From positions 62,001-126,000 of the forward strand of contig WRBA01000002.1 in assembly GCA_009779915.1 (NCBI GenBank): a stretch of DNA of 64,000 bases, read 5' to 3'. Origin of the DNA: Defluviitaleaceae bacterium. Lineage in GTDB: Bacteria > Bacillota > Clostridia > Lachnospirales > UBA5962. Under the pieces are notes generated by a model. The model was not told the origin of the DNA and searched no databases. It saw only the letters and a list, made by a program, of their open reading frames with translations. Of this stretch, positions 51,052 to 54,804 are shown piece by piece (position 1 is the first letter of the stretch; each line of letters starts with the position of its first letter). The position numbers were made by a program, and so were the translations under genes.

Positions 51052-51855
51052 CTACATCTTTTCTGTTTTATTTTGTACATACAAACCAAATGGGTCAGTG
51101 TTTAATTTGGTGAGGTAAATATCTAATGCCCCATAGATAAAAGTGCTTGCAGGTTTATCATTAAATTTTTCATCGAAACTATTATGGATTTTAGCAAGTT
51201 TAGATATTAAATTCATATCGCCTTTTACAAATGTTATGAGCAGTTCCCAATATGACTTGGCAAATAATTGACCTTTATCGCTCTCGGGCAGTATACCTTT
51301 TTTGTGAAGCCTTGTTCCCTCTATGTTTAAGCAGTTTAGGGTTTTTACTATTTTTGCAGCACTCTCTTTGTCGTATTGCCGCAAGTGGTCGAATAGTTCA
51401 TCATCAAAATGTTTTATAGCCCAGTAATGCACATTTTTCATTTGCAAATTTTCAATGATAGCTGCGTATTTCCTAAAATCTACTGACTGCATTTGCAGTA
51501 CTTCCGCTTTAAGCATCTCTATGGTCTCTAAAGATTCAGCAAGCTGCTTCATTTTTTCGCGGATAGCTGTGGCTTGTTCCGTAAGTGCATCAGCAACATC
51601 ATCCGGGGTTTCCAATGTTACAAAGTGGTTTTTTATATCGTCAAGAGAGAAGCCTAAATGTTTCATCGCTAATATTTGGTTTAACGCTACCATATCTTTA
51701 TCGCTGTAAAGCCTATAACCGCTCTTGCTCTCTGACGACGGCGGCAATAGTCCGGCCTTATCGTAATAATGAAGAGTACGGACTGTAACTCCCATCTTCT
51801 TAGCAAGTTCGCCTACAGTCATATAATTCTCAGGAATAGCCCTATATTTATCCAT
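51052..51855 (-). CDS. MerR-family transcriptional activator
   Basis: A 267-residue regulator. The N-terminal MerR domain (TVGELAKKMGVTVRTLHYYD, KAGLLPPSSESKSGYRLYSD) is followed by a coiled coil (about 85-135, TEQATAIREKMKQLAESLET) and a helical C-terminal part about 130 residues long, large enough for a TipA-like drug-binding domain, though I cannot confirm the class. The start is ATG 51855: an upstream ATG at 51876 overlaps the -10 of the promoter, so it cannot be in a leader. Such proteins bend DNA to activate promoters with a 19-bp spacer, exactly what precedes this gene, so it is likely self-activating and may also serve the exporter operon. Confidence 0.92.
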   Translation of the reverse strand: MDKYRAIPENYMTVGELAKKMGVTVRTLHYYDKAGLLPPSSESKSGYRLYSDKDMVALNQILAMKHLGFSLDDIKNHFVTLETPDDVADALTEQATAIREKMKQLAESLETIEMLKAEVLQMQSVDFRKYAAIIENLQMKNVHYWAIKHFDDELFDHLRQYDKESAAKIVKTLNCLNIEGTRLHKKGILPESDKGQLFAKSYWELLITFVKGDMNLISKLAKIHNSFDEKFNDKPASTFIYGALDIYLTKLNTDPFGLYVQNKTEKM

Positions 51856-51874
51856 ATCAACACCTCGCAGCAAC

Positions 51875-51905
51875 ATTATAAACCCTGACGCAAGGTTAGG
51901 GTCAA
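51875..51905 (-). promoter_or_regulatory. MerR-type promoter with 19-bp spacer and operator
   Basis: On the minus strand a -35 TTGACC (51900-51905) and -10 TATAAT (51875-51880) are 19 nt apart, the over-long spacing used by MerR regulators. The spacer and -35 carry a dyad CCCTAAC-5 nt-GTCAGGG with one unpaired position in each arm, a typical MerR operator. The gene directly downstream encodes a MerR protein. Confidence 0.85.
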
Positions 51906-51919
51906 TATTTTTTTAAAAA

Positions 51920-53407
51920 TCACAAATAAACATTTCGCGTTGCAATTTTATTACAAAAAACGCTGTCATGTTCTACAAACAGTATTGTTGGCTGATATTC
52001 GGCAAGCAAATTTTCAATTTGCATACGAGATATTACATCGATATAATTTAGGGGTTCATCCCAAATAAGAATATGGGATTTTTCGCATAAACTCCTGGCA
52101 ATAAGGACTTTTTTCTTTTGTCCTGCGCTAAAATCCTCCAATTTTTTATCAAACTGTACTCTTGAAAAGTCAAGCTTACGCAAAATAGCTTTAAAGAGAG
52201 TTTCGTCTAAGCCGTTTTCTCTGATAAATGCAGACAGACCGCCTTTAAGATAAGACGTATCCTGGGAAATATATGAAATGGATAAACCGCTGCTTTTTTC
52301 AAAGTTTCCGGTATACTGCAAGCCCTCACCGCAGACTAATTTAATAATACTCGACTTGCCTGATCCGTTTTTACCACATAATGATATGCGCTCACTTTTT
52401 TCGATGGTTAAGTTGATATTTTCGCAAACTATTTTGTCGCCATAAAATATAGATACGTCTTTAAGTGAAATAAGTCTATTATGATGATAGTCAAGCTGGG
52501 CTAATTTAAGGGATTCAGAGGATTCAATATTTTTAAGGAGTTTGGATTTTTCCTCGCTCGCGCTTTCGTAACGACCTTGTATTACTTTGCTGCGCTTCAT
52601 CATTTTAGCTGATTTGGCTGCTTCATAAGGTCGCCTGCCTATGCTTTTTTCGATATTTTTTGGATTGAAGCCGATTTTTCGGCTCTCAGCTTTATCAGAC
52701 CACATGGCCTTCTCTCTTGCGGTTTTTTCAAGGCGTTTAATCTCTTTTTTTAACTTATCATTTTGGGCAAGCTGGGAGCTATCCTGCCTTTCCTTATTCA
52801 AAAGCCAGGATGAGAAATTACCCCGCTGTATTTCAATATCAACTTTATTTATGGAAAGAATATGAGAGATACATCCGTCAAGAAAAGCCCGGTCATGAGA
52901 GACTAATATATAGCCCTTTTTACCCTTTAAATACTTGCTTACTATCTCTCTGCCCTGTGAATCGAGATGATTTGTAGGCTCATCAATTAAAAGAAAGCTG
53001 TTTTCTTTTAAAAATAGGGCAGCAAGCATAATTTTTGTCCGCTCTCCATTTGAAAGAGTGTAAAATGGGCGGTATAATACTTCACTTTCCACCTCAAGTA
53101 ATGATAATTCCCGCTCCAGTTCCCATTTTTGGTAAGATGGATAAATATTTTTTACAATAGAGATTGTACTTAAGCTTTCATCGGATATTTCAAATGGGAA
53201 ATATTCAAACTTACAAGGTATGCTTATTGTGCCTCCATATGGGAATTTACCCATAAGCAAATTTAGGAAAGTTGTTTTGCCTCGCCCATTTCTTCCTGTA
53301 AATCCCAATTTCCAATCGGTATCTATTTGAAAACTTACATTTTCAAAGATATTGTCATAACTGCCTTCGTAGGCAAATGTTAGGTTTGTTATATTAATCA
53401 ATGCCAT
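51920..53407 (-). CDS. ABC-F ribosome-protection protein, Lsa-type
   Basis: A 495-residue soluble protein with two ABC domains and no membrane helix. Domain 1 has GRNGRGKTTFLNLL, signature TLSNGERTKIML and Walker B LLIDEPTNHLDSQG. The linker (about 180-300) is long and basic (KLKKEIKRLEKTAREK...WSDKAESRKIG). Domain 2 has CGKNGSGKSSIIKLV and WDEPLNYIDVISRMQ. The N terminus (LINITNLTFAYEGSYDNIFE) and domain 1 resemble Lsa-type proteins that remove lincosamide, pleuromutilin or streptogramin A antibiotics from the ribosome. Resistance is inferred from family; activity was not tested. An attenuator-like leader lies upstream. Confidence 0.9.
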   Translation of the reverse strand: MALINITNLTFAYEGSYDNIFENVSFQIDTDWKLGFTGRNGRGKTTFLNLLMGKFPYGGTISIPCKFEYFPFEISDESLSTISIVKNIYPSYQKWELERELSLLEVESEVLYRPFYTLSNGERTKIMLAALFLKENSFLLIDEPTNHLDSQGREIVSKYLKGKKGYILVSHDRAFLDGCISHILSINKVDIEIQRGNFSSWLLNKERQDSSQLAQNDKLKKEIKRLEKTAREKAMWSDKAESRKIGFNPKNIEKSIGRRPYEAAKSAKMMKRSKVIQGRYESASEEKSKLLKNIESSESLKLAQLDYHHNRLISLKDVSIFYGDKIVCENINLTIEKSERISLCGKNGSGKSSIIKLVCGEGLQYTGNFEKSSGLSISYISQDTSYLKGGLSAFIRENGLDETLFKAILRKLDFSRVQFDKKLEDFSAGQKKKVLIARSLCEKSHILIWDEPLNYIDVISRMQIENLLAEYQPTILFVEHDSVFCNKIATRNVYL

Positions 53408-53440
53408 AATGTGTCCCTTTGTCCCTTTCTAAAGCGCAAT

Positions 53441-53473
53441 AAAAAGCTGCAAGAAAGTTAATTCCCGCAGCTT
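53441..53473 (-). terminator. Predicted attenuator terminator in the ABC-F leader
   Basis: On the minus strand AAGCTGC (53467-53473) pairs with GCAGCTT (53444-53450) and is followed by TTTTATT. It lies about 35 nt before the ABC-F start. Its 3' arm overlaps a segment (53449-53460) that pairs perfectly over 12 bp with an upstream segment (53577-53588) inside the leader ORF, giving an alternative fold. Confidence 0.75.
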
Positions 53474-53506
53474 CAAAATGCACATTAGCAGAAACGCGAA
53501 TCGTTT

Positions 53507-53596
53507 CTACAGAAAGGTGCAACGAGATTTTGCAAAGCAAAATCGAGTGGCTATGCAAAAAAAGCGCAAAAATTCGTAACTTTCTTGCTTGGACAT
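53507..53596 (-). CDS. Predicted leader ORF of the ABC-F attenuator
   Basis: An ATG at 53596 opens a 29-codon frame ending TAG at 53507-53509, encoding a Phe/Cys/Arg-rich peptide that begins MSKQESYEFLRFFCIATRFC. The 12-nt upstream half of the alternative stem (53577-53588) lies in its fourth to seventh codons, so a ribosome stalled early in this frame would free or hide that segment and change the fate of the terminator. No clear ribosome-binding site precedes it, and an in-frame ATG further upstream exists. This is inference from layout. Confidence 0.5.
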   Translation of the reverse strand: MSKQESYEFLRFFCIATRFCFAKSRCTFL

Positions 53597-53703
53597 AACA
53601 AAAAAACTTGTTTTTTGTACATCCTGCATTACTTAGCAAGAAATATTACGCATTTTTTCACCCCTTGTTTATATTTATAATGTTTCATTACAAGTTAATT
53701 TTA

Positions 53704-54804
53704 TCAAAAATCACCCTCTTTGTCAATCCTATAGCTAACGGTTTTAAGCCAATAACCATGTTTTCCCTCTTCTATATCTTTACAATCACAGCAGCTAAAC
53801 TCAATAAGCCCTGATACATGGGCACTGTCTTTGCTGATTTTTGTATAAATATCAGGCATACCAAAAATAATCTGTGAGATGTTATCTTGGTTTTTATACC
53901 CAAGTATTAAATGGTTGAATTTCTTATATGCCGCCACTATGAGATAATCATCTTTAAGATGTTTAAACTCGTCCGGAAGGTAATTAAGCTCATTAGGCGT
54001 TATACGTACCCATTGTAAATCTGAGTCCTGCTCTTTAAAAGGGCGTATCTTTGAACAGTTTACAAAAATATTTTGTAAATTTACCATCTCAGACTCACTA
54101 AGACCTACACTCTCAGCAGGGGTATCGGCTTCGGATAAAGCCTCTACTTTGTAGTTATCTTCCGTTATATTATCAATTTCACTTAGTTTTTCGTTAATTT
54201 TTTTAGCCATATCTTTAAAGGTTTTTTCAGCGGCACCTTCTTCGAGTGTCTCAAAAAACTCCGGTGGTGAAACGGCTTCCGGCGGGGGAGGGATTTCATC
54301 TTTTTCAAGGAAAAGGGTATTTGGCTCAGGGTCATTTTCAGGCAATTCATCTTTAATAGGTTCAGCATATGCAGTTTCCGGCAGCTTTTTACTGTGAATA
54401 TGCAAATTATTCTTCCAAGCAACTTCTCTGTCCCTGTGACCTACAATTGGTGCTTTTATAGCATTTCCATCTAAAATCATCATTCCGGCTACATTAAAAG
54501 CATTAAGCGCAATGCCGGAACCGTCTACATCATCAGCACTGCATTCCCATTTAAGCTCCGCACTGCCTTTATCACTTACTATTATTCTTCCAATATCAAT
54601 TGCCGCCCCCGATACATTGTCCGAAGATACTATATACGCGTTGCAAATTACCCCCGGCTTTAAATTCTGGACACTAAAACTTACCTTGCCGGATTCTCCT
54701 TTGGCTTCGAGGACACATTTTCCAAGAGCTTTTTTACCTTTCATTGTAAATTCGGTTGTGTTTTCACTTAATATTATTTGATATCTCTGATAATTTTGAG
54801 ACAT
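53704..54804 (-). CDS. Hypothetical protein with Pro/Glu-rich linker
   Basis: A 366-residue soluble protein that I cannot name. Residues 1-125 look like a beta-rich domain with repeated Gly/Ser strands (GKVSFSVQNLKPGVICNAYI, GSAELKWECSADDVDGSGIA). A Pro/Glu-rich linker follows (about 150-190), then a helical stretch and a C-terminal domain (about 255-366) with LQWVRITPNELNYLPDEFKH, GYKNQDNISQIIFGMPDIY and paired Cys in FSCCDCKD. No signal peptide or membrane helix. Similar two-part proteins occur in spore-forming Clostridia, but I infer no function. It is a single-gene unit. Confidence 0.75.
   Translation of the reverse strand: MSQNYQRYQIILSENTTEFTMKGKKALGKCVLEAKGESGKVSFSVQNLKPGVICNAYIVSSDNVSGAAIDIGRIIVSDKGSAELKWECSADDVDGSGIALNAFNVAGMMILDGNAIKAPIVGHRDREVAWKNNLHIHSKKLPETAYAEPIKDELPENDPEPNTLFLEKDEIPPPPEAVSPPEFFETLEEGAAEKTFKDMAKKINEKLSEIDNITEDNYKVEALSEADTPAESVGLSESEMVNLQNIFVNCSKIRPFKEQDSDLQWVRITPNELNYLPDEFKHLKDDYLIVAAYKKFNHLILGYKNQDNISQIIFGMPDIYTKISKDSAHVSGLIEFSCCDCKDIEEGKHGYWLKTVSYRIDKEGDF

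Follow-up and report, generated by a model that had tools for sequence, protein, structure and literature searches.

A probable ribosome-mediated transcription attenuator before an Lsa-type ABC-F gene belongs to a leader family found across Clostridia, Negativicutes and Paenibacillaceae

The window, i.e. the whole 64-kb stretch of DNA that was analysed, carries on its minus strand a gene (51920-53407) which, judged by its sequence, is an Lsa-type ABC-F gene, as the first-pass annotation had proposed. The 495-aa product scores 466 bits with the NCBIfam model ribo_prot_ABC_F, above the cut-off of 380, its best solved relative is the ribosome-bound Lsa(A) (structure 7nhk), and it is 60.6% identical to the plasmid-borne Lsa(E). 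With ABCF_Lsa_all (NF000167), by far the best-scoring subfamily model, it reaches 708.3 bits and thus stays under the curated cut-off of 750, and we hence speak of an 'Lsa-type' gene and do not assign it to a named Lsa allele. A gene for a MerR-family regulator (51052-51876, minus strand) lies 43 bp 3' of the ABC-F gene in the same orientation, and after it come genes for two half-transporters of the ABC exporter type (50836-49088 and 49191-47269); together with the ABC-F gene, these possibly form one resistance cluster. The gene and its leader comprise the following features:

53698-53726, minus strand: predicted sigma-A-like promoter, TTGACA-17-TAAAAT with an extended -10 TG (consensus scan, 11/12 matches)
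53658-53666, minus strand: Shine-Dalgarno (SD) site of the uORF, AAGGGGTGA (from the sequence; aligns with the GGAG(T/C)TGA block of relatives)
53633-53653, minus strand: leader uORF of six codons, ATG CGT AAT ATT TCT TGC TAA, encoding MRNISC and a stop (from the sequence and relatives)
53636-53643, minus strand: arm 1, UUUCUUGC, forming the 5' strand of the anti-antiterminator from within the uORF (pairs with 53588-53581)
53577-53588, minus strand: arm 2, GCAAGAAAGUUA, partner of arm 1 or of terminator arm 3 (12-bp perfect match to 53460-53449)
53561-53573, minus strand: antiterminator extension with complementarity to the terminator 5' arm (constrained fold)
53480-53548, no strand assigned: one copy of a two-hairpin repeat dispersed in the genome, lying mid-leader (13 further copies in the same genome, E <= 1e-3)
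53438-53474, minus strand: intrinsic terminator (fold, inverted repeats, covariation)
53449-53460, minus strand: arm 3, UAACUUUCUUGC, in the terminator 3' arm (12/12 pairing with arm 2)
53414-53430, minus strand: SD region of the ABC-F gene, AGAAAGGGACAAAGGGA, with a predicted pairing to the repeat (inverted repeat I3, pairing probabilities)
51920-53407, minus strand: Lsa-type ABC-F ribosomal protection gene, 495 aa (NCBIfam models, structure match, Lsa(E) identity)

The predicted promoter lies about 300 nt upstream of the ABC-F gene, where it overlaps the last codons at the 3' end of the preceding gene (53704-54804, minus strand; a 366-aa protein of no confident family, weak DUF7922), and we infer a transcription start near 53690. 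The terminator stem consists of GAAGCUGCGGGAA (53474-53462) and UUUCUUGCAGCUU (53456-53444) and is followed by UUUAUU. Pairing of the extension at 53561-53573 with the terminator 5' arm would leave both arms of the terminator sequestered in the antiterminated state. As read from these complementary segments, the leader is a set of anti-antiterminator, antiterminator and terminator of the classical kind. Its fold (-87.2 kcal/mol, compared with -57.9 kcal/mol for dinucleotide shuffles; z = -6.4) was equalled by none of 200 shuffles; a perfect inverted repeat of at least 12 arises in 24 of 2000 shuffles and is, taken alone, modest evidence.

When bacterial genomes were scanned with the ABC-F protein, 80 loci were obtained, most of which carry the same leader in the order GGAG(T/C)TGA, start codon, UUUCUUGC, hairpin, GCAAGAAAGUUAC, AUUCUUUUCACUCA and terminator, the common terminator of the relatives being GAGCUGCAAGAA...UUUCUUGCAGCUC. 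In a covariation alignment of 48 leaders (47 besides that of the window), 98.2% of the cells of the arm 1/arm 2 helix are paired, with two-sided changes at 3 pairs; the corresponding values are 93.9% and 7 pairs for arm 2/arm 3, and 99.1% and 8 pairs (40 cells) for the terminator. Compensatory changes in the three helices outnumber those in shuffled and slid controls, and in one leader (L046) all arms have changed jointly (UUUCCUGC / GCAGGAAA / UUUCCUGC). A second conserved block is 92.6% paired with the terminator 5' arm in the 48 leaders, and the antiterminator extension of the window has kept its complementarity with different bases. The three predicted, mutually exclusive helices are supported by this covariation. 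The first-pass annotation had already named the terminator (as 53441-53473) and the 12-bp perfect pairing between 53577-53588 and 53449-53460 that overlaps its 3' arm, and both hold up, the former by its fold, its stem with U-tract and its pairing in the alignment, the latter by the conservation of the arms in the 47 other leaders.

The covariance model R1, which describes the 5' half of the leader (36 leaders, the window left out), has the leader as its only significant match in the window (62 bits, E 7.6e-10; next 15 bits). Across 148 genomes of the class it gave six matches, namely the window and five others, each of which adjoins a gene 56-66% identical to the window ABC-F. R1 further matches the lsa(E) leader of the Enterococcus faecium plasmid pJEG050 (L135; 75.8 bits, uORF MYNFSC plus stop), which belongs to the same family by its matching arms and terminator, but is without the repeat insertion and has a second short ORF between terminator and lsa(E); a paper describing this leader was not found in the open-access literature searched. 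Members of the family stand before dozens of lsa-like genes, the hosts of which belong to Clostridia, Negativicutes and Paenibacillaceae, and before one plasmid lsa(E). In Rfam 15, only a tRNA was found in the window, and the leader was unmatched there and at 8 related loci. The earlier impression that the leader resembles none of the known ones is therefore correct as far as Rfam and the uORF are concerned, the latter being unlike MIN of vmlR, MRI of cplR and MAGN of lsaA, but it has to be amended in that the leader is a member of a widespread family.

The ABC-F gene can occur apart from the attenuator, as is illustrated by the closest protein relative found (L039, MAG DTU069; 72% identity), which has no such leader directly upstream. 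Among seven genomes of the same taxonomic family, two others have a strong ABC-F relative, one preceded by the leader (L120) and one with none directly upstream (L119). No R1 match was obtained near the gene start of lsa(B) and of the Priestia and Paraclostridium plasmid relatives.

One could imagine that the leader is not controlled by the ribosome at all and instead represents a riboswitch or the binding site of a trans-acting protein, as structured leaders with terminators are typical of such systems too and a MerR-family gene lies just downstream. However, arm 1 is located inside the footprint of an SD-preceded start codon in every leader class, no Rfam family matches, and the characterised ABC-F leaders are ribosome-controlled, so that we regard this explanation as extremely improbable.

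The arrangement of the uORF itself speaks to what the ribosome would sense. In a census of 76 leaders, the uORF reads M-stop in 36, xxSC-stop in 29, MK-stop in 4, ME-stop in 2 and otherwise in 5 cases; one relative (L130) is preceded by a uORF identical to that of the window. The uORF thus ranges from M-stop up to seven or eight codons, yet the distance between its AUG and the end of the arm 1 UCUUG block is held to 14-20 nt in 76/76 and to 15-18 nt in 66/76 leaders. With the spacing kept in so narrow a range and the peptide variable, the signal would be a start-codon-stalled ribosome and not the peptide. The opposite view, in which a particular nascent peptide would sense the drug through elongation stalling, be it in MRNISC or in a Phe/Cys-rich frame of greater length, in the manner of erm and msrD leaders, could be based on the recurrence of the SC-stop ending in the 29 uORFs and on the presence of longer Phe/Cys frames at 53622-53551 and 53629-53507. 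Yet SC is simply the reading of arm 1 in that frame, arm 1 is kept in leaders with M-stop, MK-stop, ME-stop, MRN-stop or another frame (MDSFLA-stop), and the longer frames lack a well-placed SD site, which makes sensing of a peptide very unlikely from our point of view.

The first-pass annotation had proposed ribosome-mediated attenuation with a 29-codon Phe/Cys-rich leader frame. Strong comparative evidence has accumulated for the attenuation, but the sensor appears to be the six-codon uORF further upstream, acting by its position and not as a Phe/Cys stalling peptide; this conserved uORF falls just outside the segment 53408-53640 to which the annotation was confined. The 29-codon frame itself could not be reproduced, the nearest ones having 23 codons (53622-53551) and 40 codons (53629-53507). 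As candidates for the leader ORF these were rejected, on inspection, for want of a well-placed SD and in view of the conserved sensor upstream, and an informal look at the relatives revealed no conserved frame at their place.

The most unusual members of the family are those in which the uORF AUG is directly followed by a stop codon (36/76; UAA 18, UGA 10, UAG 8), and these belong to Paenibacillaceae and a few relatives. The loci concerned are among L066-L118 (Paenibacillus, Cohnella, Brevibacillus, Shimazuella), where the lsa-like gene follows after about 200-250 nt. Their arm 1 lies at the same distance as in leaders with longer uORFs. Since the codon after the AUG in this class is always T-purine-purine, with UGG occurring once (L101), the conservation of the stop is statistically inseparable from a preference for purines. 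The default minimum of uORF4u is three codons (PMC10219788), and AUG-stop uORFs could hence be overlooked; in the open-access literature searched, we found none in bacterial antibiotic attenuation.

The mechanism as such is already known from other ABC-F genes. The uORF MIN of vmlR works by such attenuation (PMC9226507), as does MRI of cplR (PMC10201436), and lincomycin and retapamulin stall initiating ribosomes with little need for sequence context (PMC9226507; PMC10201436). Like the window leader, that of Bacillus subtilis vmlR has a short SD-preceded uORF in an anti-antiterminator hairpin, an antiterminator and an intrinsic terminator before the ABC-F gene, and lincomycin and retapamulin stall initiating ribosomes there with loose demands on the uORF sequence (PMC9226507). 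It differs by its uORF (MIN as opposed to MRNISC) and by a pause hairpin and an SD-sequestering SL-4, where the middle of the window leader is a dispersed repeat; moreover, of the two leaders only that of vmlR has experimental proof. In Clostridioides difficile, cplR shares the tiny uORF and the attenuation of a PLSA-type ABC-F gene, which is both transcriptional and translational in that case, but its uORF is MRI, its product belongs to another ABC-F subfamily, and the cplR terminator itself sequesters the SD of the gene (PMC10201436). For lsaA of Enterococcus faecalis, a member of the Lsa subfamily with predicted uORF control, the reported uORF consensus is MAGN (PMC10201436), to which MRNISC does not conform; the one lsaA-like locus examined (Enterococcus raffinosus, 40.7% identity) gave no R1 match. 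Among the attributes of ribosome-mediated transcription attenuators of ARE-ABC-F genes, those that can be read from sequence are present in the window, i.e. a short SD-preceded uORF that overlaps the anti-antiterminator, mutually exclusive antiterminator and terminator, and a ribosome-protection ABC-F gene downstream.

The comparative evidence speaks strongly for ribosome-mediated attenuation of the Lsa-type ABC-F gene, and we consider it highly probable that this transcription attenuator is driven by a ribosome stalled at initiation. Without drug, MRNISC-stop would be translated quickly and arm 1 would pair with arm 2, such that the terminator could form at 53474-53441 and transcription would end before the gene. 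An antibiotic that stalls the ribosome at or just after initiation would park it on the uORF AUG, where its footprint would hide arm 1; arm 2 would then pair with arm 3, the terminator would be blocked, and RNA polymerase would read into the gene, the product of which would shield ribosomes from the drug. For translation of the uORF and for read-through we extrapolate from vmlR, cplR and related systems, and by the same analogy pleuromutilins, lincosamides and streptogramin A are the expected inducers.

The computed energies are consistent with such a switch. In the free leader the terminator has an advantage of 7.3-7.6 kcal/mol, whereas the antiterminator is favoured by 1-3 kcal/mol if the uORF is covered to +15 of the AUG, as it would be by the footprint of a ribosome stalled at initiation, and the transcript ends at the U-tract. 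Across the 48 leaders the terminator is favoured in all free RNAs (median -15.0), the balance shifts upon covering of the uORF (median +2.7), and the shift of the window lies inside the family range. For the complete leader at equilibrium with the ribosome in place, the terminator together with a repeat-derived outer stem is nevertheless favoured by 7.5 kcal/mol, and the relatives show the same, albeit weaker, tendency (median -1.6). As the full-length equilibrium favours the terminator even with the ribosome, the decision must fall during transcription, and in this model we expect it to be kinetic, as in other attenuators.

The repeat from which the outer stem derives takes the place of the middle segment, between arm 2 and the terminator, that the relatives conserve. 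The first-pass annotation had counted two other internal hairpins to the leader; these exist, but they are part of this genome-dispersed repeat, lie outside the conserved core and are ruled out as parts of the attenuator core. The copies of the repeat, which are mostly intergenic (53480-53548, L002-L008, L122-L127), measure about 70-105 bp, are often flanked by TATAAT-like boxes and occur in tandem at two places (L005/L006 and L008/L125), and their stems vary yet remain complementary. In the free leader, CCUUUCU of the repeat (53517-53511) is predicted to pair with AGAAAGG (53430-53424) in the SD region of the gene when the terminator forms; at the corresponding position the relatives carry a CUGUAU / AUACAGGAGG stem, and, by inspection, two bases unlike those of the other repeat copies improve the pairing. 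In this one sequence, these observations are suggestive of a co-option of the repeat as an SD-sequestering part.

The repeat-bearing copy could, on the other hand, be impaired. In the extreme case the leader would be a degenerate relic, the attenuator having been broken by the insertion and the gene being constitutively off or low, which would fit the replacement of the conserved segment and the full-length equilibrium in favour of the terminator despite a stalled ribosome. Against this stand the intact arms, with 12/12 pairing of arm 2 and arm 3, an antiterminator extension that is still complementary though its bases have changed, an energy shift within the family range and an intact ABC-F gene, and we accordingly find a relic very unlikely. 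Beyond the initiation-stalled attenuator, we see the chances as evenly balanced for a broader proposal, namely that the family senses nothing but a ribosome held at the start codon, so that the coding part can vanish and AUG-stop would be a one-codon, peptide-free sensor, and that in the window the repeat serves as middle and SD-sequestering part.

What began as a single predicted attenuator is thereby extended to a defined family of leader RNAs before dozens of Lsa-type ABC-F genes and a plasmid copy of lsa(E), which is annotated for lincosamide and streptogramin resistance. As a unit, this family appears to be undescribed in the resources searched (Rfam 15, open-access literature). With six-codon, two-codon and AUG-stop uORFs at equal spacing, it further makes the distinction between sensing of a peptide and of a start-codon stall directly testable.

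Lastly, several loci (L135:1625-2000, L068, L116, L136 and L137, the latter being lsa(B)) have a second short ORF, which lies downstream of the first terminator (or promoter), still ahead of the ABC-F gene, and is followed by sequence around CCGACTTTG...TACAAAGGAGG. This region possibly represents a second, translational attenuator, and lsa(B) and the Priestia gene apparently have only this second-ORF element.
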